Shown here in pieces: positions 35,161 through 51,141 of a stretch of DNA of 52,904 bases (within the stretch, counting starts at the first letter, position 1; each line of letters begins with the position of its first letter). This stretch comes from a virus. The position numbers were made by a program, and so were the translations under genes. Where the stretch lies: IMG/VR virus record IMGVR_UViG_3300025585_000055, positions 1 through 52,904 of that record; one strand, 5' to 3'. Below the pieces are notes generated by a model. The model did no database searches. It had not been told where the DNA came from and saw only the letters and a list, made by a program, of their open reading frames with translations.

Positions 35161-38100
35161 ATGGCAACGATTCGAGAGCTTGAAGCGGCGCTGATCAACG
35201 CAGACAGAGCTGGAGACACGCAGGCAGCCACTGCGCTGGCCGCAGAGATCGACAGACTGCTCGGTAGAGTTGTGCCAGCAGCTGCGCCGGAACCAGCCCC
35301 GGTCGAGCGCACGTTCATGGGCCAAGCGGGTGAATTGCTCAAAGGCATCCCTCGCGGTGCGATCAGCCTCGGGGAAACCGCAGCTATCGGTGCCAGCGCA
35401 CTGCTGCCTGACGAAGAAGAATCCTACCTGCGCGAAATTATCTCTGGCGCTGCGGAACGCGCTGCGTCCCCGTTCCAACGCAAACCCGGTTATGAAGACA
35501 GCATGGCGGGCACGTTTGGTGAGGTCGCCGGTAGCTTCCTCCCGCTTATGGCGACAGGGGCGCTGGGGTTGGCCGGGAGAGCCGCCGCCACAGGTTTGGC
35601 CGGCGCAGCCGGCGCAGGTACCGCAAGAACACGAGCGGAGCAGGGTGGAGCCACGCCTGAAGAACGTGCAAAAGCAACTGCGCTCGGTACTGCTGTTGGT
35701 CTGAGTGAAGTTCTCGTGCCATTCAGGATACTTGATAACGCACTCGACGCCACGGCGGCCACCACCATATTCAACCGAATCAAGCGGGCGGGGATCACCG
35801 GCGGCGCGGAAGGTGCGCAGGAAGCCGCTGCTGAAGTGGCGCAGAACCTCATCGAGAAGGGCCTTTATGACCCAGAGCAGGGTGTGTTTGTTGGAACCGG
35901 CGAGTCTTTCGGTTACGGCGCTGGGGTAGGCGGACTTGTGCAAGGTCTGTTCGACCTGTTTGTAAAGGACCGTTCGGCTGCTGGGGCACCACCTCCTGCG
36001 GAAGAACCGACAACTCTGACCGAGGAGCAGCAGCAAGCTGGCGATCTCTTCCCGGAAGAACTTGAAGCAGCGACCAGCGATGAGCAAATGGTTGCGGCCG
36101 CAATGGCTCGCCGGCAGGCACAAGAAGAAAACGATCTCGCACTACGTGAGGAGGACGCTGAGGCAGCGGAACTGCAAGGTCAGGAGCAGCTGGACATGTT
36201 CACGCCGCTCACCGACGCCGATCTGGACAAAGCAGGCGTGCCCAAAGCTGCCCCAGTGCGAAAGCGCGTAAAAGGAAACCCCGACGCAGCGAAGGTGAAA
36301 GCCGAGCTGACGACGTTTGCCAAGAACACCAACGTGACGCCAGAGGTTGCTGCGGCGGTCACTGCTGTAGCGGATAGTATTCCTGTGGCTGCGCCAGTTG
36401 TTGAAGAGGCGGCCCCCGCGGCAGAAGCCCCACCCATTGCTCCAGAGAACACTGTGGAAGCGGTATGGGCAAACAAAGATTTTGATCAACCGATGTTTGT
36501 GTACAACGAACCTCCCGCTATACGGGAGGGTGTTCAGTATTCTCGCGCTCGTGGCCCGGTAGAAACTGCGCCTGTCGTTGTTGAGGAAGCCGCCCAAGCC
36601 CCTGCGGCCCCGGTAGAAACCGTCACGCCCGCAGAAGAAGCCGCCGCAGCGGAAGTTGCGCCTATGACGCCAGCTAAGCGGCTAGATTTGGCTAGGCTTT
36701 ATTCAGCGTTATCAGAAACACCTCAACAAGATGTGTTTTTCGCCCTTAAGGAGATTGAAGCCGCTGGGCTTAACATCGAGGCCATGCCAACTACCACTGC
36801 GGTGTCGGCTATTCGGTACGTTGCACGAGGTGGGGACCCAAAAACTATAGGTGCCGGGGCAACCGCGCCCGCTCCCGCTGTGGAAACTACCACACCCCCC
36901 GAAGCCCCGGTAGAAACTGCGCCTATCGCCACGGCGGAGCCGGCACAAGCGACGTACCCGGACCAAGACATCCGAAGCGCTGCGAAAGAGCTGCAGCTGG
37001 ACGACATGCCGGCCAAGGGAAAAGCCACGCAGTGGCTGGGCAATCTCAGAACGTCTGACCCTGAAACGTACAACCGGGTTGTTGCGCAGATCGAAGGTCC
37101 CGCCCTCAACGCCGTACAGCCAAAACGCGAAGAGGCCGCCAGCATCCCAGCTAACCAGCGAATCATGCAGCTGGTCGAGCAGGGCGCGACTCCGGCGCAA
37201 ATACTGCGTGCGATCACACAGGACAAAGACCTCCCGCAAGCGCTGCGAGACATGGCCGCTCAGATGCTGCGCGTCGCGCCGAACATCAATGTGCCTGTGA
37301 TTTCCAAGCGCTACGATGACCCGAGCGTCGTCGGCGAGTACGTGCACCCGTCCAAGGGTGACGAGGCGATCTATCTCGACCCACGAGCCGAATCGGTTGC
37401 GCAGACGTTTGTGCACGAGTTCATTCACGCTGCGACTGTAAATGGTATTGCCCGGGGGGTACCGGCCGGCAGACGCCTGAAAGAGATGTTCGACGCGTAC
37501 AAGGCCGCCACACCGGAGGCCGACACTTACGGGCTGACAAATGTGTACGAGTTCGTCGCCGAGGCACTGACAAACCCTAAGTTCCAAGTCGAGCTCAAGA
37601 GCCGCAACCTCAAGGGCGCCAAGAAGTCCTACTGGGACTCATTCGTCGACTTCGTGAAGAACATCCTCGGCATCCAGCAACGTGGACCGCTGGAAGAAAT
37701 CCTCGACCTGACAAAAGACTTGGCAGTGCAGCAAGACAAAGTGTGGCAAGCAGCCGAGCAGGCTCTTACTGACCAGACCCCCGCAGCCAACGTGCGCTTC
37801 CTGAATGTGCAGGGCGCACAGCTTAACTCCACCTCCAAGCCAATGAAGTCGAAGCCGGTGCGCGAAACCATTGCCAAAGTGATGGGGACCACTGCTGGGG
37901 CAGCCACCTCAAATGCTGCAAGAAAAGTTCTGACATGGGGTCTCCCTTTGCCGGCGCTTAATGATTATGTGCAGTCGTATATGCGAAAAAAAGGCGCGGC
38001 GTACGTGCCATTTGCCGACGCCATGAAGCGTTACACCGAGACTGCTGTCAAGTTCGAGGGGGCAATGCGTGAGTTTGTCGACTCCATCACAGCCCAAATT

Positions 38101-40629
38101 TCTCGGATGGGGGACTGGAAAGTAAAGAACCCTGATAAGTACGCGGCGATGACCGAGCTGTACTTTGGCGGGTCTCATGCACGAGTTGACCTGACTAAGC
38201 AGGAAAGTGACTACGCCGGTAACGCCGAGAAACTCGCTGCATACCGCAAGCTGAAGAAGCACTTTGACGCCCTTGGGCCGAGTGGGCAGGCAATCTATCG
38301 GCAGATGCGGGCTATCCATAACCGTCAGTTCAAGCAAATTTCTCAACAGGTGTTTGATCGGGTATACGCCGAAACAAAAGACAAAGATATGGCTACCCGC
38401 GTCAGGAACGCGTTCACCGAACAGATGCGCGAAAAGGGTCCGCTGGAAGGCTATGCACCGATGCTTCGCCCAAGCGGCAAGCACATGCTCAAGTACACCG
38501 ATAAAAACGGTGAGCCCGCGTTTGAGATATTCACGAACCCCAACGATCTGGCAGCTCGTCAACAGCAGCTCATCGAAGACGGGGTTAGCGAGAAAGACAT
38601 CAAGCCGTTCTTGGGTGCAAATCTGCAGACATTCGACGGCGTGGTTCCGTCCAGCTTCCTTGGGAAGCTCGTCACTACACTTAAAGAAGGTAAAGCCGAC
38701 GAAGCTCTTATCGAATCCGTGATGACCCTTGGCGTGGCGATGTCACCGACAAACGCGGTCATGGAGCGGTTGGCGTCAAGAAAAGAGATCGCAGGTTATG
38801 TGCGCGATCCGTTCTGGGCCTTCCAAGAGGGTACCGTCGGTCTCGGCCGCAAGCTAATCAATTTGGAGTACGGTGCCAAATTGAATAAAGAGCTGCGTGA
38901 TATGCAGGCTGCTAGAGAGAACGTTATCAACGACCCGACGGCACTGTCCATCGTCGAAGATGTCGAGAAACGCGCGCAGTACGCAGCAAACCCCAGTCAA
39001 AGCTGGTGGTCGAATCTGTTCACAACCGGCACATACGGCTGGACGCTGGGCTTCAACGTGTCTTCTGCGATAGTTGATATGTCGTCACTTGTGCTGGTCA
39101 CTGGCCCTTACCTGACGAAGACGTACGGGTTCAGAAAGACTCACCGTGCCATGATGGCAGCGGCGAAAGACATACTCGGCATGGGCACAACCGCTGACGT
39201 GGAAACACTGGTGACGCAAGGGTTGGAAGGCGACGCACTCAAGGAAGCGCTGGACACGCTTGGCGTGAAAAACCGCGACATGGTGCGAAGGAAGACCATA
39301 CCGTCGATGCTGAACATCGACTTCAACGATCCAGCGCAGCAGAAGAAGTACGGCTACCTTAAGCCGCTGGTGGACAAACTGCGAGAGGCCGGGCACTCCG
39401 AGCGGTACTCCGAACTGTCTGAATCGGCCGAGTTTGGTGAGAGTAATCGTCTGTCCAAATGGTCAGCGCGTATGGGTTTCATGATGAACGCCAGTGAGCG
39501 GTTCAAGCGAGAGACGGGCCTGAAAACGGCATACGACTTGGCGCTGTCCGAGTTCGGCGCGAATCCCACCGCGGAGCAAATGGTAGAGGCAGCACAGAAA
39601 GCCATGGACATGAGCCTGCTGCTCAACGGCGGGTCAACGGCAGTGACCGGTGCCCGGTTCCAGCAGAATGATATTGCCCGGATTGCGTTCATGTATCGCC
39701 GGTTTGCCGCGCTGCAGATGTACCTGCAAACAAAGACCGCATACGACGCCACCCTGAATGACGACCCCGATGTACGCAAGGCCGCCAGAAAGTTTGCAGC
39801 GTGGACCATGTTGACTTCAGCTGCGCTGGTCGGTGTCAAAGGGATGCCGATGATGGGGGCAGTTGCCGGCTTGTGGGCCATCTATGGTGCGATGTTCGGG
39901 GAAGAGGATGAGGACAACTCCTTGGACAACTTCCTGCGCACAAACTTGGACCCGATCGTCGTGGAAGGTATCCCGAACCTCCTGTTCAACGCCAACGTGG
40001 CCGGCCGAATGGAGATGACAAATCTGCTGATCCGGGACTCCAACCTGCCGAATGACGCGACGCTGGCGGATATTGTAATGGCGCACTTTGGTGGTCCGGC
40101 GTACGGTTCCATCAGCAGGGCTTATCGAGGCGCACAGTTGTTGGCAGACGGCGAAGTTCAGCGAGGGGTTGAAAGTATGCTCCCGGCGTCGTTCTCCAAC
40201 ATATTCAAGTCCGTGCGCTTCTTGTCTGAAGGTGCCATAGAGACGCTGCGCGGTGACGCTGTTACAGAGGTCAACCCGTTCGGCGCACTGGCGCAGGCGC
40301 TGGGTTTCGCCCCTGCCGATTACGCACGAGCCATGGACTTCAACGTCGCCGATTCCAATGCAGAGCGTCGGATCAAGAGCCGCAGAACGAGCCTGTACGA
40401 AGCGGTCTATACCGCATACCGAGTGGGGGATTCCTCCGGTGTTGCGCAAGCGATGCAGAAGATCATTGAGTTCAACCAGCGGTACCCCGAGTGGGCTATA
40501 ACGTCTGAAGGGTTGCGGCAGTCAGTCCGCGGTCGAGACAGAAACACTAGAGACATGGTCATGGGCAGGTTGCCCGATGCCAGAGTCCGTGACGCTACGC
40601 TGGAAAGAGCAGAGGATTGGGGCTTCTAA
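35161..40629 (+). CDS. Giant internal virion protein with zincin motif, 1822 aa
   Basis: Start ATG 35161. The N-terminus is helical, followed by a hydrophobic Gly/Ala segment (GSFLPLMATGALGLAGRAAA) near residues 125-145 and long Pro/Ala/Glu linkers. At H752-E753-F-I-H756 there is an HExxH zinc motif (VHEFIHAATV) with E797/E801 (YEFVAEAL) downstream as the likely third ligand, an arrangement known in zincin-type metalloproteases. The remaining 1000 residues are helical and resemble large polyvalent-type phage proteins. It is probably carried in the head and ejected. The protease could cut host proteins or open the cell wall. No lysozyme or transglycosylase motif is seen. It ends the late block. 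Confidence 0.75.
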   Translation: MATIRELEAALINADRAGDTQAATALAAEIDRLLGRVVPAAAPEPAPVERTFMGQAGELLKGIPRGAISLGETAAIGASALLPDEEESYLREIISGAAERAASPFQRKPGYEDSMAGTFGEVAGSFLPLMATGALGLAGRAAATGLAGAAGAGTARTRAEQGGATPEERAKATALGTAVGLSEVLVPFRILDNALDATAATTIFNRIKRAGITGGAEGAQEAAAEVAQNLIEKGLYDPEQGVFVGTGESFGYGAGVGGLVQGLFDLFVKDRSAAGAPPPAEEPTTLTEEQQQAGDLFPEELEAATSDEQMVAAAMARRQAQEENDLALREEDAEAAELQGQEQLDMFTPLTDADLDKAGVPKAAPVRKRVKGNPDAAKVKAELTTFAKNTNVTPEVAAAVTAVADSIPVAAPVVEEAAPAAEAPPIAPENTVEAVWANKDFDQPMFVYNEPPAIREGVQYSRARGPVETAPVVVEEAAQAPAAPVETVTPAEEAAAAEVAPMTPAKRLDLARLYSALSETPQQDVFFALKEIEAAGLNIEAMPTTTAVSAIRYVARGGDPKTIGAGATAPAPAVETTTPPEAPVETAPIATAEPAQATYPDQDIRSAAKELQLDDMPAKGKATQWLGNLRTSDPETYNRVVAQIEGPALNAVQPKREEAASIPANQRIMQLVEQGATPAQILRAITQDKDLPQALRDMAAQMLRVAPNINVPVISKRYDDPSVVGEYVHPSKGDEAIYLDPRAESVAQTFVHEFIHAATVNGIARGVPAGRRLKEMFDAYKAATPEADTYGLTNVYEFVAEALTNPKFQVELKSRNLKGAKKSYWDSFVDFVKNILGIQQRGPLEEILDLTKDLAVQQDKVWQAAEQALTDQTPAANVRFLNVQGAQLNSTSKPMKSKPVRETIAKVMGTTAGAATSNAARKVLTWGLPLPALNDYVQSYMRKKGAAYVPFADAMKRYTETAVKFEGAMREFVDSITAQISRMGDWKVKNPDKYAAMTELYFGGSHARVDLTKQESDYAGNAEKLAAYRKLKKHFDALGPSGQAIYRQMRAIHNRQFKQISQQVFDRVYAETKDKDMATRVRNAFTEQMREKGPLEGYAPMLRPSGKHMLKYTDKNGEPAFEIFTNPNDLAARQQQLIEDGVSEKDIKPFLGANLQTFDGVVPSSFLGKLVTTLKEGKADEALIESVMTLGVAMSPTNAVMERLASRKEIAGYVRDPFWAFQEGTVGLGRKLINLEYGAKLNKELRDMQAARENVINDPTALSIVEDVEKRAQYAANPSQSWWSNLFTTGTYGWTLGFNVSSAIVDMSSLVLVTGPYLTKTYGFRKTHRAMMAAAKDILGMGTTADVETLVTQGLEGDALKEALDTLGVKNRDMVRRKTIPSMLNIDFNDPAQQKKYGYLKPLVDKLREAGHSERYSELSESAEFGESNRLSKWSARMGFMMNASERFKRETGLKTAYDLALSEFGANPTAEQMVEAAQKAMDMSLLLNGGSTAVTGARFQQNDIARIAFMYRRFAALQMYLQTKTAYDATLNDDPDVRKAARKFAAWTMLTSAALVGVKGMPMMGAVAGLWAIYGAMFGEEDEDNSLDNFLRTNLDPIVVEGIPNLLFNANVAGRMEMTNLLIRDSNLPNDATLADIVMAHFGGPAYGSISRAYRGAQLLADGEVQRGVESMLPASFSNIFKSVRFLSEGAIETLRGDAVTEVNPFGALAQALGFAPADYARAMDFNVADSNAERRIKSRRTSLYEAVYTAYRVGDSSGVAQAMQKIIEFNQRYPEWAITSEGLRQSVRGRDRNTRDMVMGRLPDARVRDATLERAEDWGF

Positions 40630-40633
40630 AAAT

Positions 40634-40669
40634 ACCCCGGCAGCATTAAGGGAGTTTGTCTGCCGGGGT
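40634..40669 (-). terminator. Terminator of the leftward replication operon
   Basis: Inverted repeat ACCCCGGCAG ... CTGCCGGGGT with a 16-base loop. On the minus strand it is followed by ATTTTT. On the plus strand the 3' flank is TCCGTAAG, without a T run. It therefore ends leftward transcripts at the junction with the convergent late block, and only weakly, if at all, the rightward ones. Confidence 0.75.
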
Positions 40670-40697
40670 TCCGTAAGTAACAACCGTGGCAAGTCTA

Positions 40698-40901
40698 TCA
40701 GGCCAGTCGCCAGAATCGAACCCCTTGCAGTTTATTCTCCACCCGGCAGCGGTGATCGCAGACCCAGCCTTTGCTTTGTGCAATCTCGTAAAACTGCGCC
40801 ACGGCTTCCACCATGTCAATGCAAGGGACGAACACGGAGCATCCGGGGTCAAAGGTTTTCCAGTTCACCACCATGCGTAAACCGTCGGGGGCCAAGTCCA
40901 T
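40698..40901 (-). CDS. Small conserved phage protein, 67 aa
   Basis: Start ATG 40901-40899, a little after the stop of the primase-helicase gene; the frame could begin at 40958, but that would overlap the large gene. The compact sequence (GLRMVVNWKTFDPGCSVFVP, then QFYEIAQSKGW and a final GVRFWRLA) is beta-alpha-beta and matches a small protein family often beside phage replication genes. It has four Cys. Function unknown. Confidence 0.7.
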   Translation of the reverse strand: MDLAPDGLRMVVNWKTFDPGCSVFVPCIDMVEAVAQFYEIAQSKGWVCDHRCRVENKLQGVRFWRLA

Positions 40902-40917
40902 GGCAACCCCGCGGTGC

Positions 40918-43800
40918 TCATTCTTCCTCGGTTTTCTGGGCGTTATTGACGACTTCATCTTCAGTCCCTGCGTCGCTAAGCCACGACGCTCCCTGCAGCA
41001 TAAGCACGCTCACCGGCGGCAGATTCAACTTTGTGCCTTTACCCATGCGCTTGGAAACCACCTTCGCGCCGCACGGCATGGTGCGCAGCTCTCGAATCAC
41101 CCCGTTATAGTCGATCTGTCTGTCTGCACACCATGCCCTGAAAGGCTTTGGCATCAAGTACAGCGTGTTGCTGTCGGTCTCCAACCGGCCGAGCAGCGCG
41201 ACGCGAGGCATTGCTTCCGGCACAACCAGATGGTCCAGCACATCTGCCCGACTACTATTATCGGCACGGCCGTCGCTTGAATCCCGGATTCGCAGGAAGT
41301 CGTTCACGTTGGCATAGAAATAGTCGCTGACCACTTGCGTGGCGTCGTGGTTGTACATATTGACGTCTTCTTCCTTGTACTCGCGCAGGTAGTTCACCAC
41401 CCAGTCAATCAGCGCTTTGACATCGTATTTTATGTACTTGAGGCGCTTGGCAATCAGTAGCCCTGTAATCACGCACGCAGCTTGCGCTGACCAGAATCGG
41501 TTTTGCGCAGTGAGCCCGGCACGGGCATCGATGCTCATCTGAACGCTGACCAGCAGCTTCTGGATTTCGTCGACGTTGTTCATGATGTACTGCAGGTACG
41601 GTATCGCCGCGTGCCCGAAGTGCAGCTCGATGGATTTTGCCAGCGCATCGGTGTCGTGCTTGGCAAGGTTCTTTTTCTGCGGAGAGAACTCCAGCACACG
41701 TTGCATCTCTGCCTTCGGTGCGTCCTTGTAGGAGTTCACCTTGGAGATGAGGCTGGCGTTGCCGGTTGTGACGCAGATGAAGCTCCATGGGTCCCCGCGC
41801 CAGCGGGATGAGTTAGCACCTTGGGCCAATCGGCCGCGCTGCTTACCGCTGGGAATCTGGTAGATAAAATCGCTGGTGTCCTTCGGGTGCATATTGGTCA
41901 ACTCGTCGCAATAAAGCGGCAAGTCCTTGATGACCTCTGCGTAGTTCATCTTGTCGTTGTAAGTATCACGCTCGAACTTCACGAACTTCGCCGGGTCGGC
42001 CCACAGACTGGCGGCTGCCAGCAGCGCCGTGGTCTTACCGTAACCTGAGTCCTTGGTGTGAAAGTGGAAGATTGACCCCTTGATAGCTGTCATCTTGGTC
42101 AACACAGAGCCGAATGCTGTGCCAATAATGTATTGGTACGACTCAAACCCCGGCTTGTTGAAGAACTCCAAATTATTCTTCCATTCGTCCATAGCCCCCT
42201 GCGGTTCAAACATTGGGAAGAAGTGGGACGTCTTGCTCGATGGTGCGTTAAGCTCCACACGGTCCGGCAGCACGCGGGCGCGACCCAGCGTAAAGCTGGA
42301 AAACTCATCGTCAGTCCAGCCGAATTGTCTGCGGCTCAAGTCCGCAGCGGAAGTGTGCTCCAGATTGGAGACCCATTTTATAACGTAACTCATTAATGCC
42401 TCCCAGTGTGCGGTTGTGGCAACCGCCACGCTGTTTCTCGACAGGTACTTTCGCAGCTCGTCCCGAGCCGTCGCCGCGTACATAGGCACCGTAAACTCTT
42501 TCACTCCGTCATACGGCAGGTGCACCCGTATCACAATTGACGCGCCTTCCTCGGGGTCTTCCACGCGTCGCAGAACATACAGATCGTGCTCATACACCAG
42601 CATTTCAACTGCATCCCCTTCCCGGTTCTCGGTCTCGATGTACACGCCGCCGTTCTTTCCGCGGAAGTAAGGGGCAGGGTATTTAGGTATTGTGTACGCC
42701 TGCAGTTCAACAGTCTTCATCTGCTCAGGGCGGTCAAACACAACGTTATCTTCGTCCTGCGCCCGAATAATCTCCTTGCCCAGCTGAATCGGCGACGTCA
42801 GTTTGCCGTTGTTGGGGCACTTATCACAAAGCCCGGGGTTCATGCTGTCAAATGTCGCGCAGTGATAGGGGCCTGCGGTCAGCTTGGCTTTCTTCTGAGT
42901 CTCCTCCGGGTCGTACTTCGGGTGCTTGCGAGAGATAATGTGAATAGCTTTGTCGCCGTCCACGCAGTTCACCGCAATAGACAGCCCGCCACGCCACAGC
43001 GGCTCTTCGACGTCTGCTTGGTTTGTTGTGATGTTGACCAGTTGCAGGCAGCCGCGCCCCTTGGCGCTCTTCTCAAGAATGGTTTTGAATCGGCTGGTGG
43101 CATTTCCCATCAGGGACGCCATCATGGGGTCAGCTGCGTTTGTACGCGCCTTCTTCGGCGGCACCTCGCCTTCTGGCACGTAGTGATCCAGAATCGCTTT
43201 GAACTTATCCAGCGACATCGCCGGCTCTAAATCCGCAAGCACCGCTACGTTCTTCGGCGGGCTGTCCTTATGGTTACGTGTCCCCGGGCAGCGCAGCACC
43301 CGTGCGCAGTCAGCCGGTACAACCGGGTCAATGTTAAGCCCGTGGTTCATGCACATTTGCTTGAAGCGAAGCGCGAGCGGGTGCCACTCCCTCTTCGGCA
43401 TGTCCTCGTCCATTGCCCAGTACACGTGCAGCCCGCGACCGGAGTTCACCATCGTGGGTTTCGGAAGCTGGTGTGTTTGGCAGAACACGCGCACGGCCTT
43501 TACCGCCGCTTGCTGTGTCGGAAAACCTTTGTCGCCTTTGTCCTTGCCACAGTCCAGATCAAGAAAAAACGAGCGCAGCTTCTCTGCGTTATCCGCGGTA
43601 CGTTTACCCTCGGAAAGAAAAGACGCCAACGCGAAGTACACGTCGTGGTCGGTTTCATCAAGCTCCTGTGCGTATTCCCCCATGTCTGCAAGAGACGAAA
43701 AGAACTTTTGCGTGAGCTGCTTTTGACCGGCCTTGACGGCAAATATGCAGTAGTGCTGCCCCTCGGCGAGCACATGTTCTAAGAATTTTAGTGCGCCCAT
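40918..43800 (-). CDS. Primase-helicase (AEP primase plus DUF927-type ATPase)
   Basis: 960 aa from ATG 43800; upstream codons to 43863 lack a start site. The N-terminal archaeo-eukaryotic primase domain has the metal-binding pair in FFLDLDCG (D81, D83) and the active-site basic motif SGRGLHVYW (H125). Cys-rich segments follow near residue 320 (LCDKCPNNG). The C-terminal ATPase has Walker A SGYGKTT, Walker B LPLYCDELTN and a sensor-like RGRLAQGANSSRWRG, as in DUF927/SF3-like phage helicases. It would unwind DNA and make primers for the family B polymerase. One protein thus covers both jobs that T7 gp4 does with unrelated domains. Confidence 0.85.
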   Translation of the reverse strand: MGALKFLEHVLAEGQHYCIFAVKAGQKQLTQKFFSSLADMGEYAQELDETDHDVYFALASFLSEGKRTADNAEKLRSFFLDLDCGKDKGDKGFPTQQAAVKAVRVFCQTHQLPKPTMVNSGRGLHVYWAMDEDMPKREWHPLALRFKQMCMNHGLNIDPVVPADCARVLRCPGTRNHKDSPPKNVAVLADLEPAMSLDKFKAILDHYVPEGEVPPKKARTNAADPMMASLMGNATSRFKTILEKSAKGRGCLQLVNITTNQADVEEPLWRGGLSIAVNCVDGDKAIHIISRKHPKYDPEETQKKAKLTAGPYHCATFDSMNPGLCDKCPNNGKLTSPIQLGKEIIRAQDEDNVVFDRPEQMKTVELQAYTIPKYPAPYFRGKNGGVYIETENREGDAVEMLVYEHDLYVLRRVEDPEEGASIVIRVHLPYDGVKEFTVPMYAATARDELRKYLSRNSVAVATTAHWEALMSYVIKWVSNLEHTSAADLSRRQFGWTDDEFSSFTLGRARVLPDRVELNAPSSKTSHFFPMFEPQGAMDEWKNNLEFFNKPGFESYQYIIGTAFGSVLTKMTAIKGSIFHFHTKDSGYGKTTALLAAASLWADPAKFVKFERDTYNDKMNYAEVIKDLPLYCDELTNMHPKDTSDFIYQIPSGKQRGRLAQGANSSRWRGDPWSFICVTTGNASLISKVNSYKDAPKAEMQRVLEFSPQKKNLAKHDTDALAKSIELHFGHAAIPYLQYIMNNVDEIQKLLVSVQMSIDARAGLTAQNRFWSAQAACVITGLLIAKRLKYIKYDVKALIDWVVNYLREYKEEDVNMYNHDATQVVSDYFYANVNDFLRIRDSSDGRADNSSRADVLDHLVVPEAMPRVALLGRLETDSNTLYLMPKPFRAWCADRQIDYNGVIRELRTMPCGAKVVSKRMGKGTKLNLPPVSVLMLQGASWLSDAGTEDEVVNNAQKTEEE

Positions 43801-43813
43801 ATCCCACCAGCGA

Positions 43814-43847
43814 TCTCTAGAGACGACAAGGGGCGCCGGAGCGCCCC
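43814..43847 (-). promoter_or_regulatory. Leader hairpin and palindrome before the primase-helicase gene
   Basis: GGGGCGC-TCCG-GCGCCCC stem (43830-43847) in the 76-base gap after the SSB-like gene, then a perfect TCTCTAGAGA palindrome (43814-43823) just before the ribosome site (GGTGGGAT). The stem has only two T's after it, so it is an attenuator at most. The pair may lower primase output relative to the SSB-like protein. Confidence 0.5.
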
Positions 43848-43876
43848 CGCCTAAAGTATGCACAGTCTATTTGGGA

Positions 43877-44884
43877 TTAGTCGTCCCACTCACCCAGCAA
43901 GTCGTCGAGCTCACCCGCGGGTTCGTCTTTTGGCACGGGCTTCTTGGAGCTGCGCACCACCGGCTCGTCGTCTTCCTCAACCACCGGAGCAGCTTTCTTC
44001 TTCGGTGCTGGCGCTTCGTCTTCATCTTCCTCGACTACCGGGGCAGGTTTCTTCTTGGCTTTCGGCGCAGGCGCTTCTTCATCGTCTTCAACTACCGGGG
44101 CAGCCTTTTTGGCCGCAGGCTTTGCGGAAGACCCGGAGGTTTTGTCGCCGTCAAACGCACCGACAGTCATCGTGATAGCGTCCTTGGCTTCCTTGGAGTC
44201 ACGCATCTCCAGCGCGATTTCGAGCTCTTCTTGATCCAACGGGCGCACCGCGCTGAAGGACAGCTTAGGCTGTTCGCTGGAAACATCGAACTTCATGCGG
44301 GTGACCACGGAAATAGCGTGCACAGAGTTTGCGGCCAAGAACTTGCCGTATGCCTGCAGGCCCATCTTGCCGTCCTTGCCGTCGCCGAACACGCTGGTGG
44401 CAGGGAGCTGCAGCTGGTACACCTCTTTCTTCTCAACTTCACCATCAAGCAGCACTGCAACGCGCTGGGAGAATCGGCACGCACGGGACTCGCCCTGACC
44501 GGAACCCTTGATATTGTTTGGGCAGGTCATGCACTTGTCGCTCTGGCGCTGGTCTTCCGGCACAGCTGCGTCTGGCTTCTGAGTATCAGAGGACCAGCAG
44601 GTGGGGGGAACAGCTTGTGCTTTGGGGTCGTACGCCCCTTCGTAGTATTGACGGGACACCGGCGCAGCGTTCACCAGAATTACATCCAGTGCGCGATCTT
44701 CACTGACGTAGACTTCTTCGCCGTTCACCACCTGACGAAACGCCTTACCCTTGATAGAGATTCGACGGTTACCCGCGCCGCCGCTGCCACCGCCTGCGAT
44801 GGTCTTAGTGATGCTGTCTTCAAAGCCTGCCGGCATGGCTGGCAGCTTGAATTTCTTGCCTTCAAACAATGTTACGTTGCTCAT
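43877..44884 (-). CDS. Putative single-stranded DNA-binding protein with acidic tail, 335 aa
   Basis: Start ATG 44884 with GAGG. Residues 40-250 are a beta-rich core that holds four Cys in a zinc-like set: C96, C118, C121, C136 (KCMTCPNN and SRACRFSQ). The C-terminal 80 residues alternate acidic and basic blocks with a repeated APVVEEDEDEAPAPKKK unit, and the protein ends GELDDLLGEWDD. An acidic, aromatic-ended C-tail is the mark of phage SSBs (T7 gp2.5, T4 gp32) that recruit replication enzymes. T4 gp32 also binds zinc. It lies next to the primase-helicase. SSB identity is inferred, not proven by a known domain. Confidence 0.68.
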   Translation of the reverse strand: MSNVTLFEGKKFKLPAMPAGFEDSITKTIAGGGSGGAGNRRISIKGKAFRQVVNGEEVYVSEDRALDVILVNAAPVSRQYYEGAYDPKAQAVPPTCWSSDTQKPDAAVPEDQRQSDKCMTCPNNIKGSGQGESRACRFSQRVAVLLDGEVEKKEVYQLQLPATSVFGDGKDGKMGLQAYGKFLAANSVHAISVVTRMKFDVSSEQPKLSFSAVRPLDQEELEIALEMRDSKEAKDAITMTVGAFDGDKTSGSSAKPAAKKAAPVVEDDEEAPAPKAKKKPAPVVEEDEDEAPAPKKKAAPVVEEDDEPVVRSSKKPVPKDEPAGELDDLLGEWDD

Positions 44885-44911
44885 ACTATCCTCTGCGTTT
44901 TGGTTTGGTTG

Positions 44912-45136
44912 TTACAAGTCGAGTTCAAGTTGTTTGCGCCCTTCGGCATTGTCGGCGCTAAGGTGGTCGCGTACCTTATCATAGTCAAACCGGTATGTGG
45001 TTCGATTGTCGCCGGGAACAGCAATGTACGAACTCTTTGGTATGACACCGCTTTCCATCCAGTTTCTTATGGTAACCGTGGAAACTTGCAGGCGTTCCGC
45101 CAGCTCGCCGATCCTGATAAGGTTGTTGCTATTCAT
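44912..45136 (-). CDS. Excisionase/MerR-type HTH protein, 74 aa
   Basis: Start ATG 45136 with GGAG; its start overlaps the upstream stop (TGATG). The N-terminus RIGELAERLQVSTVTIRNWM is a winged helix-turn-helix of the MerR/excisionase class, followed by a wing-like NRTTYRFDYDKVRDHL and an acidic end. It should bind DNA, likely as a dimer. It is the only clear small regulator in the window, so it is a candidate to bind the left-end palindromes or to control the replication operon. No test is possible here. Confidence 0.75.
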   Translation of the reverse strand: MNSNNLIRIGELAERLQVSTVTIRNWMESGVIPKSSYIAVPGDNRTTYRFDYDKVRDHLSADNAEGRKQLELDL

Positions 45137-45552
45137 CACTTTCTCCGAATGCTAATCTGGTATTTCGTTTCGGTGTTGAGGCCGGGCGGCAACACGTCGG
45201 GGTTCTCTTCCAAGAACTGTTTCATGTTGCCTTGGTGCAGGCGCTTCTCAAGCAAGTCTGGAACTTGGTGCTCAAGCACGAAAGCGTGCATCGACGCCCA
45301 GTCATTCGTCCAGTAGTTTGTTGAGGTGGTGCGGTAGAACAGGCCAGACTTGGTGCGTGCGCCTTCCACACCGTGCTCCTTGCAGTACTCCAGCAACGCG
45401 TTTTTTACCAGCGCCATTTGATCTGCAAGTTCTTTGGTTTGGTCTTTATACGCGGCGGTCAGCTCGTCGTTCTTCTCTTTCATTTTGAGATAGACCCGAA
45501 CCAGTTTGGTCAGCTTTGGGTCTTCAGTCTCAACGGTTTTTTCGGCAGACAT
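45136..45552 (-). CDS. Conserved phage hypothetical protein, 138 aa
   Basis: Start ATG 45552 with GGAGG. The N-terminal half is a coiled coil (LTKLVRVYLKMKEKNDELTA, QTKELADQMALVKNALLEYC). The C-terminal half is a compact domain (GLFYRTTSTNYWTNDWASMH) ending in a strand TKYQISIRRK. The layout is familiar from phage replication operons, where such proteins have no assigned function. It follows the only sizeable gap in the operon and may have its own promoter. Confidence 0.7.
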   Translation of the reverse strand: MSAEKTVETEDPKLTKLVRVYLKMKEKNDELTAAYKDQTKELADQMALVKNALLEYCKEHGVEGARTKSGLFYRTTSTNYWTNDWASMHAFVLEHQVPDLLEKRLHQGNMKQFLEENPDVLPPGLNTETKYQISIRRK

Positions 45553-45582
45553 CTCGGCCTCCAGTGGTTGTTTGTGCTACCC

Positions 45583-45611
45583 ACTGTACTACCCTTATTT
45601 TTACTACGCAA
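45583..45611 (-). promoter_or_regulatory. Possible internal promoter before the 138-aa gene
   Basis: On the minus strand TTGCGT (45606-45611), a 17-bp spacer and TACAGT (45583-45588). It lies at the end of the helicase gene in the 51-base gap, and would drive the 138-aa, HTH, SSB-like and primase-helicase genes. Both boxes are imperfect. Confidence 0.35.
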
Positions 45612-47142
45612 GCACTTTTTTATATAAATTGATCATTTCTGAGTGGACGCTGACTTTGTTTTCCAGCATAGAAAACACATGAACTTCCGCCCCCGACCCT
45701 TGCAGATGCACCACGGTGCACTTGTTCTTTTGTCCTGAGCGATGCACCCGAGCGTTGGCCTGTTCGTATATTTCCACGGATGAAGTGGGGCCCCACCATA
45801 CAACTGTGTCCGCCGCCGTGAGCGTCACCCCGTGCGCCGCAGCTTGCGGCTGTATCACGAGAACTCGGGGGCTGTCCGTGGTCTGAAAGCGTTGAAAGAT
45901 GTCCGTGCGTTTGGCAGGGCTTACGCCCCCATTGATGATCTCGGTGCTGATACCGTCGCTGTTCAGCTGATTGGCGAGCACCTCGATGACGCTACGGAAA
46001 GGGGCAAAGATCAGCACCTTGTTCTCTGTCTCGGCAATCACCTCCATCAGCACGTTGTATCGACTGGTGATGTCGAACTCCACCGTCTCACCGTCTTCGC
46101 TGTACACCGCTCCGGCCGAAATCTGGAGGAGTTTTCCCAGCTTTACCGCTGCGTTAGCGGCTGTCACCTGCTCACCCGCTGCCTCGATAATCATCTTCTT
46201 TTTCATGATCTCGTAGTACTTGGTTTGCTGCGGTGTCAGTTCGACGCGCCGTTTGATTGTCACCATGTCGGGCAAGTCCATGCACTCCGCTTTGGTAAAG
46301 CGTATTGCCGGCTGCAGTGCTTCATGCACAATCGTTTTGGCGTCCGGTCTGGGAACGTACTTAAACTGTGTCAGCTTGTACATCACGAGGTCGCGGAATC
46401 CGGTGAAATACTTCGGCACTCCGAGTGGGTTCACGAGTTTTGCCAGCCCGTAGGCATCCTCTGGAGACTGTGCTGCCGGGGTGCCTGTCATTAACCACAG
46501 CCATGTGTCCGGCCCGACCAACTGTCGCAGAGCTTTCCAGCGTTTTGTTTGCACGTTCTTGAGGTACGTGGCCTCGTCACAGATGATAAGGTCGAATCGG
46601 CCGTACTTGAGGTCGTCAAGTGAGTTCACCACGGTGTCGTAATTTGTGATAACAAACTCAGCATCGCTCTCTATCACGGCTTTACGCTTTGCTGCGCTGC
46701 CATGGGCAATATCCACCTTACGGTGCATGATGGTCTTGAAGAAGTCTGATCGCCACGCAACGTCCATAATGGACAGCGGGCACACCACCAGCACGCGCTG
46801 GATGATCCCTGCGGTAATCAGATAGTCGGCCGCCCACGCAGCAGCTGCGGTCTTCCCGCTGCCTTGCTGGTTGAAGCAGAAGGCTCGGCGGTGCAGGGTC
46901 AGAAACTCAGCCGTAGTGCGCTGGTGAGCAAACGGGGTGTAAAGCCCGGGCCAGTTGTAAGAGCGGTTGATGGGCGAGGGGACTTTCTTGACGCCGATGT
47001 TCTTCAACACCTGCATCTCTTCGAGCCCCCAGTTTACTGCGACGCGCCCGTCTGGCAGCTGCTTGCTCTTGGGGATAGTGTTGAGTATCTGCTGCGGGTT
47101 GCGCACGCGCAGCAGCACGGCCTTGTTGTCGTAAATCTGCAT
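45604..47142 (-). CDS. SNF2-family DNA helicase/translocase
   Basis: 512 aa, start ATG 47142. Two RecA-like domains are complete: motif I QQGSGKTAAA, Ia VVCPLSIMDVAW, II DEAT (LIICDEATYL), III LMTGTPAAQSPED, V around RVLVIQPQAAAHG and VI QANARVHRSGQ. This is the SNF2/Rad54 branch of superfamily 2; it is short, like other phage members. Likely it remodels or translocates on phage DNA during replication or recombination, or strips host proteins. A short spacing separates it from the HNH-like gene upstream. Confidence 0.92.
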   Translation of the reverse strand: MQIYDNKAVLLRVRNPQQILNTIPKSKQLPDGRVAVNWGLEEMQVLKNIGVKKVPSPINRSYNWPGLYTPFAHQRTTAEFLTLHRRAFCFNQQGSGKTAAAAWAADYLITAGIIQRVLVVCPLSIMDVAWRSDFFKTIMHRKVDIAHGSAAKRKAVIESDAEFVITNYDTVVNSLDDLKYGRFDLIICDEATYLKNVQTKRWKALRQLVGPDTWLWLMTGTPAAQSPEDAYGLAKLVNPLGVPKYFTGFRDLVMYKLTQFKYVPRPDAKTIVHEALQPAIRFTKAECMDLPDMVTIKRRVELTPQQTKYYEIMKKKMIIEAAGEQVTAANAAVKLGKLLQISAGAVYSEDGETVEFDITSRYNVLMEVIAETENKVLIFAPFRSVIEVLANQLNSDGISTEIINGGVSPAKRTDIFQRFQTTDSPRVLVIQPQAAAHGVTLTAADTVVWWGPTSSVEIYEQANARVHRSGQKNKCTVVHLQGSGAEVHVFSMLENKVSVHSEMINLYKKVLA

Positions 47143-47150
47143 TGTGACCC

Positions 47151-47432
47151 TTACTTCTTTTTCGGTTTGTGGCCGTTTCGGCTGCGGTTCTTGCTGGGGG
47201 ACTCCAGCTTGTACCCGTCGGCGTTAGTGCCGCCGTTCTTCATCATCTTGTTGTGGGACACATCCTTGCCCTCACGCCGGTCGGCGATGCCGTTGTCATT
47301 TCGATCAACACCGGTCTTGTCAATCGCACGTCGAGCCCGCTGGCGCTCCATGCGGTCTTCGTGTTCACCACGGGCCTTGGCGGTCTTGGCTTCTTGCTTG
47401 TAGTCACGCACGTAGTTCTTTGAACTTGGCAT
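47151..47432 (-). CDS. HNH-like small basic protein, 93 aa
   Basis: Start ATG 47432 with GGAGGAAC; the stop of the upstream nuclease overlaps it by one base (TAATG). The start PSSKNYVRDYKQEAKTAKAR, the central RRAIDKTGVDRN and the KDVSHNKMMKNGGTN segment align with a family of small phage HNH proteins. The usual paired Cys are missing and the first His is not obvious, so activity is doubtful. The end is Lys/Arg-rich. It may be a degenerate nuclease or a DNA-binding protein. Confidence 0.6.
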   Translation of the reverse strand: MPSSKNYVRDYKQEAKTAKARGEHEDRMERQRARRAIDKTGVDRNDNGIADRREGKDVSHNKMMKNGGTNADGYKLESPSKNRSRNGHKPKKK

Positions 47433-48100
47433 TACATGTTCCTCCCGTTGTGCGGGCAGCTCAGTACTACGCAGTACTTTTTGCATAGCCCTGATGTCTT
47501 GGGGTTCCACACCCCGGTGTCAATCGCGGTCAGTATCCGGCCGTACCGCTTGAGCCACTTGGCCCAAAGTCCCGGTGCTTCGTCACGCTTGTACTCACGG
47601 CGTATAAACGCTTTCGCTATCACAAAGAACAGCGCCGCATCGACTTCCTGCACCTGCGGGAAGTGCTTGAACGTCGCCAGTGCCATCAGCTCCAGCTGGT
47701 CTGTGTCTGCGTACTTGGCGCTCTTGCCGGCCTTGTAGTCGAGCACTTTTGCCTTTGTCCCATCGATGATACTGAGGTCGGCGATGCCACGCCACCACAC
47801 TTTCGGGTCGTCGATTGCGCACGCTTCGAGGTCTTCGGTCAGGCCCATCTCGTACTCGCAGTACTTCTTCCCGGGGAGTGCCTTGAGTTTGTCTAGTGCC
47901 TTTTTGGCGAATCCGAACTGTTTGGGCAGCTCTGCCTTCTCCGACACATAGAACTCGGCGGCCTCATGGAACTGCTCACCGTACAGCGCAGCGTCGTTCT
48001 GCTCGTCCTTGAAGTCCTTCTTGATCTTGAGGTGGTAGTACTTCCTCGGGCACTGTTCAAACAGCTTGATGGCACTGAACGACCACGTTGGTTTCTTCAT
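47432..48100 (-). CDS. Cas4/RecB-like PD-(D/E)XK nuclease
   Basis: 222 aa from ATG 48100, which overlaps the polymerase stop (ATGA); ATG 48112 would add 4 residues. The start FSAIKLFEQCPRKYYHLKI is typical of Cas4/RecB nucleases. It is followed by GEQFHEAAE, and WWRGIADLSI with KVLDYKAGK supplies the catalytic Asp and Lys. Cys17 and three C-terminal Cys (CKKYCVVLSC) could hold an iron-sulfur cluster, as in Cas4 and AddB. It probably processes DNA ends during recombination or replication. No Cas1/Cas2 genes are near, so it is not part of CRISPR. Confidence 0.85.
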   Translation of the reverse strand: MKKPTWSFSAIKLFEQCPRKYYHLKIKKDFKDEQNDAALYGEQFHEAAEFYVSEKAELPKQFGFAKKALDKLKALPGKKYCEYEMGLTEDLEACAIDDPKVWWRGIADLSIIDGTKAKVLDYKAGKSAKYADTDQLELMALATFKHFPQVQEVDAALFFVIAKAFIRREYKRDEAPGLWAKWLKRYGRILTAIDTGVWNPKTSGLCKKYCVVLSCPHNGRNM

Positions 48101-49989
48101 ACCCACACCCATTTACCTTCGTCGTTTTCTTCGATTTTTCCGGTCACCACCAGCTCGTTCCACGCTTTGGAATTCTTGCGCGGAATCTTGGGCAACTCAG
48201 GTCTCGGCACAGCGCCGATGTCCATCAGAATCTCTACACACTCTTTGGCGTACCACTTGTAATCAATGTCTGTTGGGAAGTCATCCAACAAGTCCATCAG
48301 CGGCTTGGCCCCGCGAGAGCGTGGCACTTTGTTCCCGTTGGTGCGGTAGGTGATCACCCCGTCCTCGCCCTTGGCGTAGTACCAGCGCACGACTTTACCC
48401 AACTGATAGCCGGGCTTCTCGGCACCGCCGTTCACGGTACGCAGGGTCAAAAATTTACGGATGTCACGGCACCCGAGAAGGGTCTCTTTGATAGACTTCC
48501 CAGAGGTCAACCGCTCAATCACTGCGAACGAACATATCTCATTCTGAGGGTTCTTGGCTATACCCGGTCGGCTGTGGTGGCTCTCGACGTATACGCCCTT
48601 TGCCTTCACTTTGCCGTCCTCCTTGATGGCGATGTAGTTGTTCACATCGCGGGAGTAGAGCGCCTTGTATCGGGTTTCCTCCGTGGTGAGGTTGGTGACC
48701 TTCTCCCACTTGGCAATGATCTTTTCCAGCAACCCCAGCTTGTCACGCGGGCACTTCATCACCACGCCGTCGGTGTTCGCCGACACCACTGGGATCGCGC
48801 ACAGCTCCAACATCTCAATCAGCATCAGAAGCGACAACTGGCCCGTCAGAGTTGTGCGTATCATCATCCTTGGGTTGTACAACAAGCTGTACTTGTTCGA
48901 GGTTTTGCCGAACGTGCCGTTGAGAACGATCTTGAGGGCGTCGGCAGTGACGGAATCCTTGTTCGCTTTTGCCTCCACGCGGCGCTCCAGAATACCCCGG
49001 TACACTGGTTCAAAGTACTTACCAAAAGACGGCGGGGACATCCCCATGTTGAGCATGAGGTTGGGGTAGTAAGAGGTCACGTCACGGTCTATCAGCACCA
49101 CATCATCGTCGCTGAAGTGTGCAACACTGGACTCTTGTGAGTGCAGCCCGCCGATACCTATCTTGTACTGATTGCCACCGATAGTGATCACCATCTTCTC
49201 GATCTGAGCCGGCATTTTGACGTGGCCTGTTTTCTGGATGACCATATCGGCAGAGCAGATAGTGTCGAAGCAATCCTTCAACTGCTGCGTCTGGAAGCGC
49301 ACGTACTCCGGCGGCTCGTACTTGAACGTGGTGTAGCGAATCTCGGTCTTGGGAGGGTCTTCTCCAACGAGGCGCGTGTACTCAGCCTTGAGCACGGCTT
49401 CTGCAATCTGCGCATCTGACTTGGATCGCAAGTCAACCCCGTACTGCTTACTCATAGCGCGGCGCAGGTCGATCTGCGGGGCCAGATATTCAGCCAATTC
49501 GGCCGTGACCTGTGTGTCGTTCTTGCAGTATTCCCGCACCTCGATCATCTGCTCTCGGGTCAGCTTCATGTCAGGGTTGTACGGCAGGTCTTGTAGCCGC
49601 TTCGTGCTCAGCCTGCCGCCGTAAATCTTCAAGCCAACCTGCCCAACTGCCACTTCAATGAGGTCGACGTGGTTGTACACGATCTCCTTCACCTCATACT
49701 TGCGGTAGAACTGCCACGGGCGCAGCTCGTTCAGGATGATGTCGTCTGACGCGTCCTTCAGTTCGTCGTTAGGTGCCCCTGCGAGGGCCAATCGGCACAT
49801 CAGAATGTCGTAGTTGTTGCCGTTGAATGACACCAGCTCCACACCTTCCGTCAGCATCAGGGCGAGCATTGCCTTCCTATCAAGAGGGTGCCCATCATAT
49901 TTCTCGAATGCCCGAAACTTTCCATCATCCCTGCGGAACATGGCAAGGAAGTAGTTTGGATAGCATTCAACGTCGACCACGATCTGCAT
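48097..49989 (-). CDS. Family B DNA polymerase with 3'-5' exonuclease
   Basis: 630 aa from ATG 49989; the frame continues upstream to 50145 through another gene and is rejected. Exonuclease: VDVECYPN (Exo I), FNGNNYDILM (Exo II), YCKNDTQVT (Exo III). Polymerase: motif A DRDVTSYYPN, motif B KIVLNGTFGKTSN, motif C SANTDGVVM. Motif C reads NTD instead of DTD; the second, catalytic Asp is kept. It is the replicative polymerase, working with the primase-helicase. It is shorter than T4 gp43. The insertions needed for protein priming are not evident to me, and the presence of a primase suggests ordinary RNA or DNA priming. Start and stop overlap neighbours. Confidence 0.93.
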   Translation of the reverse strand: MQIVVDVECYPNYFLAMFRRDDGKFRAFEKYDGHPLDRKAMLALMLTEGVELVSFNGNNYDILMCRLALAGAPNDELKDASDDIILNELRPWQFYRKYEVKEIVYNHVDLIEVAVGQVGLKIYGGRLSTKRLQDLPYNPDMKLTREQMIEVREYCKNDTQVTAELAEYLAPQIDLRRAMSKQYGVDLRSKSDAQIAEAVLKAEYTRLVGEDPPKTEIRYTTFKYEPPEYVRFQTQQLKDCFDTICSADMVIQKTGHVKMPAQIEKMVITIGGNQYKIGIGGLHSQESSVAHFSDDDVVLIDRDVTSYYPNLMLNMGMSPPSFGKYFEPVYRGILERRVEAKANKDSVTADALKIVLNGTFGKTSNKYSLLYNPRMMIRTTLTGQLSLLMLIEMLELCAIPVVSANTDGVVMKCPRDKLGLLEKIIAKWEKVTNLTTEETRYKALYSRDVNNYIAIKEDGKVKAKGVYVESHHSRPGIAKNPQNEICSFAVIERLTSGKSIKETLLGCRDIRKFLTLRTVNGGAEKPGYQLGKVVRWYYAKGEDGVITYRTNGNKVPRSRGAKPLMDLLDDFPTDIDYKWYAKECVEILMDIGAVPRPELPKIPRKNSKAWNELVVTGKIEENDEGKWVWV

Positions 49990-50525
49990 CACCACACCGC
50001 CCGCGCCTTGAACAGTTGCACCAGATGATTGGCCTGTGACTTGGCGTCGTCCAGCGCGTTGTGCGGGACGCCTTCCTGCGGTCGGATGCGGTCGTTGAGA
50101 AGATCGCACGTTGTGCGGTAGCAGCGGTTGTTCCAGAACTGCCAAGGTACCGGGAGCTTCAGCTTGTTGTAGGCGTGGGCCAGCATGGCGTTGTCAAAAT
50201 CGGAGCCGTTGCCCCACACGCACAGTTCCTTTGGCTCCGAGTAGGTGTTGAGAAATTCCGAGAAGTCCTGCAGCGCATCTTCCAGCGGGATATTGTTCAT
50301 GAACAACGCCTTGCGGGCCTCCTTGCTCTGCTTCATCCACCACATAAAGGTGCCGCCTGATACGGTCAGCCCGGCGTCGATGGCCGACTGCGCGTCGATT
50401 GTGCGGTAGAACTCTGGGCCTGTCCCACGCGGCGTAAACATCACTGCCCCAATGGACAGGATGACCCCTGTGCTCTTAGTGTCCAGCGTCTCCAAGTCGA
50501 GCATTACGTTAAATTTTTCGTTCAT
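49989..50525 (-). CDS. DnaQ-like DEDDh 3'-5' exonuclease
   Basis: 178 aa, start ATG 50525 in an ATGA overlap. Motifs: VMLDLETLDT (Exo I, D10/E12), GNGSDFDNAML (Exo II), and HNALDDAKSQANH (Exo III with the DEDDh His). The sequence resembles the Rv2179c-like exoribonuclease/exonuclease branch. It may trim RNA or DNA ends, perhaps removing primers or recycling host nucleic acid. The polymerase downstream has its own proofreading domain, so this enzyme likely does a different job. It overlaps the polymerase start (TGATG). Confidence 0.88.
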   Translation of the reverse strand: MNEKFNVMLDLETLDTKSTGVILSIGAVMFTPRGTGPEFYRTIDAQSAIDAGLTVSGGTFMWWMKQSKEARKALFMNNIPLEDALQDFSEFLNTYSEPKELCVWGNGSDFDNAMLAHAYNKLKLPVPWQFWNNRCYRTTCDLLNDRIRPQEGVPHNALDDAKSQANHLVQLFKARAVW

Positions 50526-50722
50526 CCCTTATCTCCAAAGTTCTTTATTCTTTCCAATTTGCGCCGAGCCTCGTGGTCAGCGATAGCGCCGAGGGTGGTG
50601 ACCCCGGCAGGTACTTGCGTGATCTTCCCGCCTTTGGCGAGAAACTTCTTGATGGCTTCGTCCAACGCATTGCGATCAATGGTCTGTTTATCAACCAACT
50701 GTTCTTCAATGTCGTCGTTCAT
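50522..50722 (-). CDS. Small phage protein with basic lever motif, 66 aa
   Basis: Start ATG 50722 overlaps the dUTPase stop by 4 bases. The acidic start (MNDDIEEQLVDKQTIDRNAL) leads to DEAIKKFLAKGGKITQVPAG, a short motif seen in small phage proteins, and a charged helix at the end (RRKLERIKNFGDKG). Function unknown; perhaps a nucleic-acid-binding regulator. Confidence 0.65.
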   Translation of the reverse strand: MNDDIEEQLVDKQTIDRNALDEAIKKFLAKGGKITQVPAGVTTLGAIADHEARRKLERIKNFGDKG

Positions 50723-51141
50723 CTTCCAGTGCTCCCGAAACCGCCGGTGCCTCGTGTTGTCTCAGACAGCTCGTCCACTTCCTGCAGATCAAACAGCGGA
50801 GCCGGCACGACGACCAGCTGGCCGATGCGACTCCCACGGTGCACGTAGTGCCCGCCGACACTGGCAGAGTAGATCAGCGCCAGCATGATCTCTCCCCGGT
50901 AGTCGGAGTCGATGACGCCGACGGCATTGACCAACGACACCCCGGCTTTGCCGAGACTGGAGCGCACCGTCACCAGCCCCACGTAGCCCTCGGGAATCTC
51001 TACAGCAACCCCTGTGCCGACCATCGTCGTGGCGTAATTCACCAGCAGACACTCGGTGTCTGAGTACAGATCAAGCCCGGCCGCGCCGGGTGTCCCGCGT
51101 GTCGGCGTGGTCGCCGTGGGGGTGAGTTTCTTGAATCTCAT
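50719..51141 (-). CDS. dut: dUTPase (deoxyuridine triphosphatase)
   Basis: 140 aa, the usual length of trimeric dUTPases. It splits dUTP to dUMP and pyrophosphate, keeping uracil out of phage DNA and feeding dTMP synthesis. All five motifs are present: I AGLDLYSD, II RSSLGKAG, III GVIDSDYRGEI, IV RIGQLVVVP, V RGTGGFGSTG. Start ATG 51141 is in an ATGA overlap with the upstream gene. No thymidylate synthase or kinase is in the window, so it relies on the host for those. Confidence 0.96.
   Translation of the reverse strand: MRFKKLTPTATTPTRGTPGAAGLDLYSDTECLLVNYATTMVGTGVAVEIPEGYVGLVTVRSSLGKAGVSLVNAVGVIDSDYRGEIMLALIYSASVGGHYVHRGSRIGQLVVVPAPLFDLQEVDELSETTRGTGGFGSTGR

Follow-up and report, generated by a model that had tools for sequence, protein, structure and literature searches.

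A probably exchangeable DNA polymerase slot in the replication module of a largely uncultured phage group

Do the enzymes encoded together in a phage replication operon constitute a single co-adapted machine, or can one of them be exchanged while its partners stay in place? The question is raised by the virus record IMGVR_UViG_3300025585_000055, a 52.9-kb stretch (52,904 nucleotides, hereafter the window) with a virion block on the plus strand (5003–40629) and an early block on the minus strand, within which the replication genes lie at 40918–51141. An initial annotation had recognized here a family B DNA polymerase (PolB), a fused AEP primase-DUF927 helicase, an SNF2 translocase, a Cas4-like nuclease, a DEDDh exonuclease and a likely zinc-binding single-stranded DNA-binding protein (SSB), and had proposed that the set may form one replication-recombination machine. 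All of these enzymes are indeed encoded in intact frames of the minus strand within this interval (Table 1). Comparison with related loci indicates that the unusual feature is the exchangeability of the polymerase and not one co-adapted machine: the replication module very probably consists of a fixed block and one slot upstream of the Cas4 gene, which holds either a family A polymerase (PolA) or a DEDDh+PolB cassette and is swapped by recombination.

The two states can be seen side by side when the window is aligned with another IMG/VR contig, L009. Their primase-helicases, SSB-like proteins and Cas4 nucleases are each 99% identical and their SNF2 proteins 98% (with just 7 substitutions among the 981 residues of the primase-helicase and 4 among the 335 of the SSB-like protein), and between o66, a small gene upstream of the slot, and the Cas4 gene, L009 codes for a family A polymerase (PF00476, E 2.5e-22) in place of DEDDh and PolB. 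DNA identity stands at 97.9% and 96.7% from window position 48099 down to 40602 and stops at 48099, within the ATGA in which the polymerase stop overlaps the Cas4 start; on the left side the alignment stops at the o66 stop codon, where DEDDh or PolA begins. A second, independent pair, L023 with PolB and L107 with PolA, is 99.2–99.3% identical over 3.3 kb, starting from the same TGA. From these breakpoints we infer that recombination at gene boundaries has, time and again, put PolB and DEDDh in the place of PolA, or PolA in theirs.

The window and L009 also differ at other points. Window 45100–46000, which spans the 3' end of the SNF2 gene and the gene for the Gam-like protein o138, is a separate recombination tract (82–87% identical, against 98–100% on either side) with no link to polymerase type. 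The o138 protein itself, 85% identical between the two contigs where its neighbors reach 98–100%, was considered as a polymerase-specific partner and rejected because it falls in this separate tract and because it is identical in L107 (PolA) and L023 (PolB). L009 additionally has a small extra gene (6088–6419) between Cas4 and o119, as do L017 and L023, which is absent from the window; the 160–350 bp of extra sequence after Cas4 in L009, L017 and L023 was likewise considered as a mobile element, an idea that was dropped, as in L009 it reads as a small gene.

A wider survey, based on scans with the primase-helicase, SNF2 and Cas4 proteins, recovered about 250 loci, from which duplicate contigs were removed. 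Among the 145 distinct contigs with Cas4, SNF2 and a polymerase, 138 encode PolA, seven PolB and none both; the loci lacking a polymerase have no more than about 0.8 kb between Cas4 and the contig end. The gene order is constant, with PolA or PolB just upstream of Cas4, followed by SNF2, the SSB-like protein and the primase-helicase, and a PolB-directed scan brought in further PolB loci with the same downstream block. Profile hidden Markov models of most module members (primase-helicase, SSB-like, Gam-like, helix-turn-helix (HTH), SNF2 and Cas4 proteins) match in 150–159 of 175 loci as well as in the isolates Rollin and RHph_TM27A; over 150 contigs of environmental phages, together with five isolates, contain the module. 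Thus, of the single machine that had been proposed, the part that stands is a conserved module of these six proteins, the fixed block co-occurring across phages; PolB and DEDDh are not integral to it, since PolA without DEDDh occupies the slot in relatives whose primase-helicase is up to 99% identical.

The phylogeny points the same way. On the Cas4+SNF2 tree, six PolB loci require six changes of state, all six forced by supported branches, and 15 PolB loci require nine changes, eight of them forced; a single PolB clade is rejected in the close group (approximately unbiased test on Cas4+SNF2 DNA, p 1.5e-47). The 20 full-length slot PolBs nevertheless constitute one clade against 67 other PolBs (SH-aLRT support 97). 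PolB being scattered on the core tree and united on its own, one PolB lineage appears to have moved among relatives by recombination. The slot PolAs are also discordant with their flanks (between L015 and L011 the flanks are 94% identical in nucleotides and the PolAs 78%), which makes the slot look like a general recombination hotspot. As a separate observation on these PolAs, all 61 that were aligned (L009:3497–5416 and others) have a leucine where Phe762 of E. coli Pol I appears to correspond.

PolB does not seem to travel alone. Of the 17 PolB loci in which 1 kb or more can be seen, 14 have a DEDDh gene upstream of the polymerase, as against none of 64 PolA loci; the counts are phylogenetically non-independent, yet the PolB loci span several independent changes. 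This distribution marks DEDDh as a co-traveler of PolB that stands outside the fixed block, and it is probably a PolB accessory. Its catalytic residues D10, E12, D111, H155 and D160 are conserved. In the isolate Rollin, which has PolA, a DEDDh gene is present but distant. In the unrelated Acidovorax phage ACF1 (L003:11977–14792) too, a DEDDh exonuclease adjoins PolB, hinting at a wider association of the two.

Exchange of this kind is itself known. In-situ swapping of DNA polymerases in Caudoviricetes was published for Crassvirales and for clades 1–4 (Yutin et al. 2024, PMC11348598), where, as here, PolA and PolB are exchanged in place in otherwise conserved and sometimes near-identical genomes with unchanged neighbor order. 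Those signs of an in-situ swap from that work that could be examined are all present in this group: the families differ between close relatives, each genome has one polymerase, the position is the same and the constrained tree is rejected. The differences lie elsewhere. The present group is known almost solely from metagenomes and is not named in that study; in its Acinetobacter phage the primase-helicase was replaced together with the polymerase, whereas in the present group it is constant; and here PolB travels with DEDDh, at least eight changes occurred in one group, and the breakpoints fall on a stop/start overlap in two pairs. What is new is therefore not swapping as such but the phage group, in which it is unusually well resolved, the constant primase-helicase, the linked DEDDh, the many changes and the codon-precise edges.

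Several other explanations of the locus have to be weighed against this. That PolB, primase-helicase, SNF2, Cas4, DEDDh and SSB make up a single co-adapted replication-recombination machine would accord with the contiguous operon, its overlapping codons and the functionally matching enzymes, as well as with the failure to find a second polymerase or primase in the record; the near-identical relatives that have PolA for PolB+DEDDh with the rest unchanged largely refute it as far as the polymerase is concerned and leave it improbable. A difference produced by assembly, with chimeric contigs fused at conserved sequence, would be suggested by the origin of every slot locus in metagenome assemblies and by the abrupt shift of identity at one point. 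However, the PolB-Cas4 junction is found at varied divergence in over 14 contigs drawn from many datasets, the contig L022, which comes from another dataset, matches the window at 99.9% identity through DEDDh and the greater part of PolB, and two pairs break at one and the same codon, so that an artifact is hardly credible. The direction of change is less firmly fixed: PolB could be ancestral and lost many times to PolA, as the count of changes gives no direction and the slot PolBs form one clade of 55–94% identity. Yet PolA is found in 138 of the 145 contigs, in both kinds of module-bearing isolates (Rollin and RHph_TM27A) and in the virion relative HTVC027P, and the slot PolAs are of diverse lineages, which together make PolB ancestry unlikely.

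Certain observations do weigh against a fixed block with a recombining slot. To the left of the slot the flanks of the window and L009 are just 68–78% identical, so that this exchange may extend leftward beyond the cassette; the PolB loci L263, L264 and L267 have no visible DEDDh; fold comparison gives no support to the SSB role; the evidence is wholly sequence-based; and the slot contigs are metagenome assemblies, though both states occur in many independent datasets.

Among the constant partners, the primase-helicase has an AlphaFold model (pLDDT 83) with fold matches to SCCmec Cch (5dgk, E 1.2e-19) and SaPIBov1 Rep (8tch, E 7.5e-17), and its N-terminal AEP domain matches the cyanophage S-2L PrimPol (6zp9, E 3.6e-7, TMt 0.77). 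In alignments of the window with IMG/VR loci, which are the only rows for this enzyme and for the SSB-like protein (alignment A5), the AEP acids D102, D104 and D179 are invariant and H146 is present in at least 90%; the DUF927 domain has invariant Walker A (G607/G609/K610), Walker B (D653/E654), sensor (N702) and arginine-finger (R722) residues, and C335, C346 and C349 are invariant as well. Conservation begins at M22, for which reason translation probably starts at ATG 43800 and not at the first-listed GTG 43863. By its predicted fold and catalytic residues the enzyme is thus an AEP-DUF927 fusion. Such fusions of mobile elements were already described as the PrimQH and All3500 families (Kazlauskas et al. 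2018, PMC5862659), and for Cch the DUF927 domain, the 3'-5' polarity and the domain's link to SaPIBov1 Rep have been reported as well (PMC7581432). Like these (PrimQH/All3500, Cch and SaPIBov1 Rep), the window enzyme has an AEP domain followed by a DUF927 AAA+ domain, with a matching predicted fold; unlike them, it is phage-encoded beside a replicative polymerase. An iteron-like origin 3' of the gene, as in SaPIs, was sought in 40600–40960, where only a terminator-like hairpin was found.

The zinc-binding SSB of the initial annotation is a putative one. The protein has four invariant cysteines (96, 118, 121 and 136) and an acidic low-complexity stretch ending in the invariant W333-D334-D335; searches of Pfam and PDB sequences gave no match, and a fold search gave no significant one, with a model (pLDDT 59.5) of too low confidence to exclude a known fold. 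An identification by way of the annotated SSBs of phages AH2 and Ab26 was also tried and dropped, there being no significant similarity. In the Cas4-like nuclease, the gene for which is the first of the conserved block after the slot, C21, C210, C214 and C219 together with D112, D125 and K127 are conserved in at least 95% of 61 aligned rows.

As for PolB, the family profile PF00136 does not match it, and its assignment comes from a profile of its own alignment (A2), which picks up family B polymerases of solved structure (best match 1s5j, E 1.5e-7), and from conserved motifs: exonuclease D7xE9, FNGNNYD and YCKND, motif A DRDVTSYYP, motif B KIVLNGTFGK and motif C SANTDG. D7, E9, D304, K354/N358/G359 and D408 are invariant along with the exonuclease residues, and motif C reads NTD in place of DTD in all members. 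The idea that this enzyme is novel or rare is ruled out by its family, phrog_1252, which has 961 phage records, many of them siphophages, with a best identity to the window PolB of 51%. Homologous PolBs, 44–51% identical, occur in phages of Casjensviridae, Septimatrevirus and Lokivirus (AH2, Ab26, Halfdan), some of which have an annotated helicase and Cas4-type nuclease nearby, as in the window; in contrast to the window, they encode a different, separate primase, some have a sliding clamp, and their PolBs fall outside the slot clade. A complementary picture is offered by Pseudomonas phage Rollin and the Rhizobium phages RHph_TM27A/B, TM29 and TM3_14A, the sole isolates found with this primase-helicase: they share SNF2, SSB-like and Gam-like homologs with the window, but have PolA for PolB and a primase-helicase only 24–28% identical.

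On this background a scheme may be sketched in which homologous recombination between co-infecting relatives, with homology arms provided by Cas4 on one side and by o66 and the early genes on the other, would exchange the content of the slot at the observed breakpoints. By analogy with SaPIBov1 Rep and SCCmec Cch, the DUF927 domain would load as a hexameric 3'-5' helicase, the AEP domain would synthesize primers, the SSB-like protein would cover single strands, and whichever polymerase is resident would elongate the primers; SNF2 and Cas4 might act in late recombination or end processing. Given that the primase-helicase and SSB-like protein remain 99% identical whichever polymerase they accompany, the hand-off is likely to be generic (through the primer-template or the SSB) and not a family-specific docking, and to judge from these pairs the retained partners must tolerate either enzyme. 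Host defense or replicon exclusion, both of which have been suggested in other groups (PMC11348598), might supply the selection involved. It is somewhat less likely than not that the group maintains a two-state standing polymorphism, in which a group-specific PolB+DEDDh cassette and PolA coexist in one phage population, are repeatedly exchanged at codon-precise gene boundaries and are kept by selection (replicon exclusion, or a defense directed against one of the polymerases), the primase-helicase serving both.

The genes and junctions are collected in Table 1. The start codons of PolB (ATG 49989) and the Cas4-like protein (ATG 48100) are refined ones. The overlaps of start and stop codons that had been pointed out earlier are borne out for o137/dUTPase, dUTPase/o66, o66/DEDDh, DEDDh/PolB (TGATG), PolB/Cas4 (ATGA) and Cas4/o119 (TAATG), while o119 and SNF2 are separated by a short gap. 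The o66 product is possibly a phage modifier of the host RNA polymerase.

Table 1. Features of the replication region, in window coordinates
Feature	Position	Strand	Evidence or remark
AEP primase-DUF927 (MCM-like AAA+) helicase, Cys-rich linker	40918..43800	-	PF06048 E 5e-22; fold matches 5dgk, 8tch, 6zp9
SSB-like protein, putative function	43877..44884	-	phrog_27714; 4 invariant Cys; disordered acidic C-terminus, WDD end
Small MerR/excisionase-type HTH protein, module-conserved	44912..45139	-	PF13411 above cut-off; 159 loci
Gam-like / Pam3 gp33-like protein (o138), module-conserved	45136..45552	-	phrog_13900 E 1.7e-18; weak PF07352, PF23984; 159 loci
SNF2-family ATPase/translocase	45604..47142	-	PF00176 E 1e-20; Snf2/Rad54-family helicase 1z63 E 1.4e-28
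Small basic protein (o119)	47151..47433	-	phrog_4590 E 1e-7; start overlaps Cas4 stop (TAATG)
Cas4/RecB-type PD-(D/E)XK nuclease, Cys4 (probable Fe-S) signature, 222 aa	47432..48100	-	PF12705 E 4.7e-14
Right swap junction, ATGA (polymerase stop/Cas4 start)	48097..48100	-	identity to PolA relatives stops here
PolB with 3'-5' exonuclease motifs, 630 aa	48097..49989	-	phrog_1252 E 1.4e-192; motifs; PDB profile matches
DEDDh exonuclease	49989..50525	-	PF16473 E 4e-54; exodeoxyribonuclease 8kel E 3e-5
Left edge of exchanged block, ATGA (o66 stop/DEDDh start)	50522..50525	-	window/L009 alignment ends at 50529, adjoining L009 PolA start
o66, 66-aa protein with SutA-type RNA-polymerase-binding domain match, upstream of slot	50522..50722	-	PF20661 E 1.8e-9, above cut-off
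dUTPase	50719..51141	-	PF00692 E 4e-26; phrog_135

A second polymerase or primase elsewhere, which the initial annotation had named as speaking against its proposal, was sought in the record without success: PF00476, PF03796, PF09250, PF13155 and PF00712 have no match, and the profile search of the record found no DnaB-type helicase, no Toprim or Prim-Pol primase and no sliding clamp. L022 shares its 99.9% identity with the window over 4.2 kb and reaches about 3.4 kb past the right end of the window; this extension holds no polymerase or primase open reading frame, which reduces, though it does not abolish, the risk from an incomplete record. By eye, the sequence beyond 52904 codes for VRR-NUC-like, SleB-like hydrolase and J-domain-like proteins, and L022:1–3421 finishes in low-complexity sequence like that of window 1–200, so that the genome may be circular, with about 3.2 kb of it absent from the record. 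Megablast found no nucleotide match of the region among phages, and a scan for defense families gave generic helicase and nuclease matches only.

Outside the replication region, the label of podovirus is plausible rather than proven, being based on a portal and a TerL nearest to those of the pelagiphages HTVC027P/HTVC023P and kin; the virion block also has an internal virion protein and a weak DNA-ejection match, and PolA-type and PolB-type contigs share one common virion portal family. At 35161–40629 lies the gene for a 1822-aa virion protein with an HEFIH metalloprotease-like motif, the C-terminus of which matches large phage polyvalent/DarB-like proteins. The intergenic stretch 2713–3151 is a candidate origin or regulatory region: it contains a nested pair of long inverted repeats (31 nt, 94%; 28 nt, 93%), whose arms are separated by about 300 nt, as well as several CCTACTTCCCTACTT direct repeats. 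The palindrome TTTACTCAAATTTGAGTAAA occurs in six copies at 197–4482 (with at most 3 mismatches; none expected in shuffles) and in one more exact copy at L022 1152–1167; several copies are just 5' of minus-strand small-gene starts, beside the ribosome site, and the palindromes look as if they served an early regulon as operators or as RNA hairpins.

If the exchangeable slot is correctly read, two distantly related polymerases work on the same natural replisome chassis, and whether a primase-helicase needs a matched polymerase would become testable with natural parts. An abundant uncultured phage group would thereby join the known cases of polymerase swapping, with many changes within one group, and the co-traveling DEDDh exonuclease would be pointed out as a possible PolB accessory. 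The near-isogenic natural pairs would, in turn, offer material for seeking the selective pressure behind the exchanges, be it a polymerase-sensing defense or replicon incompatibility.

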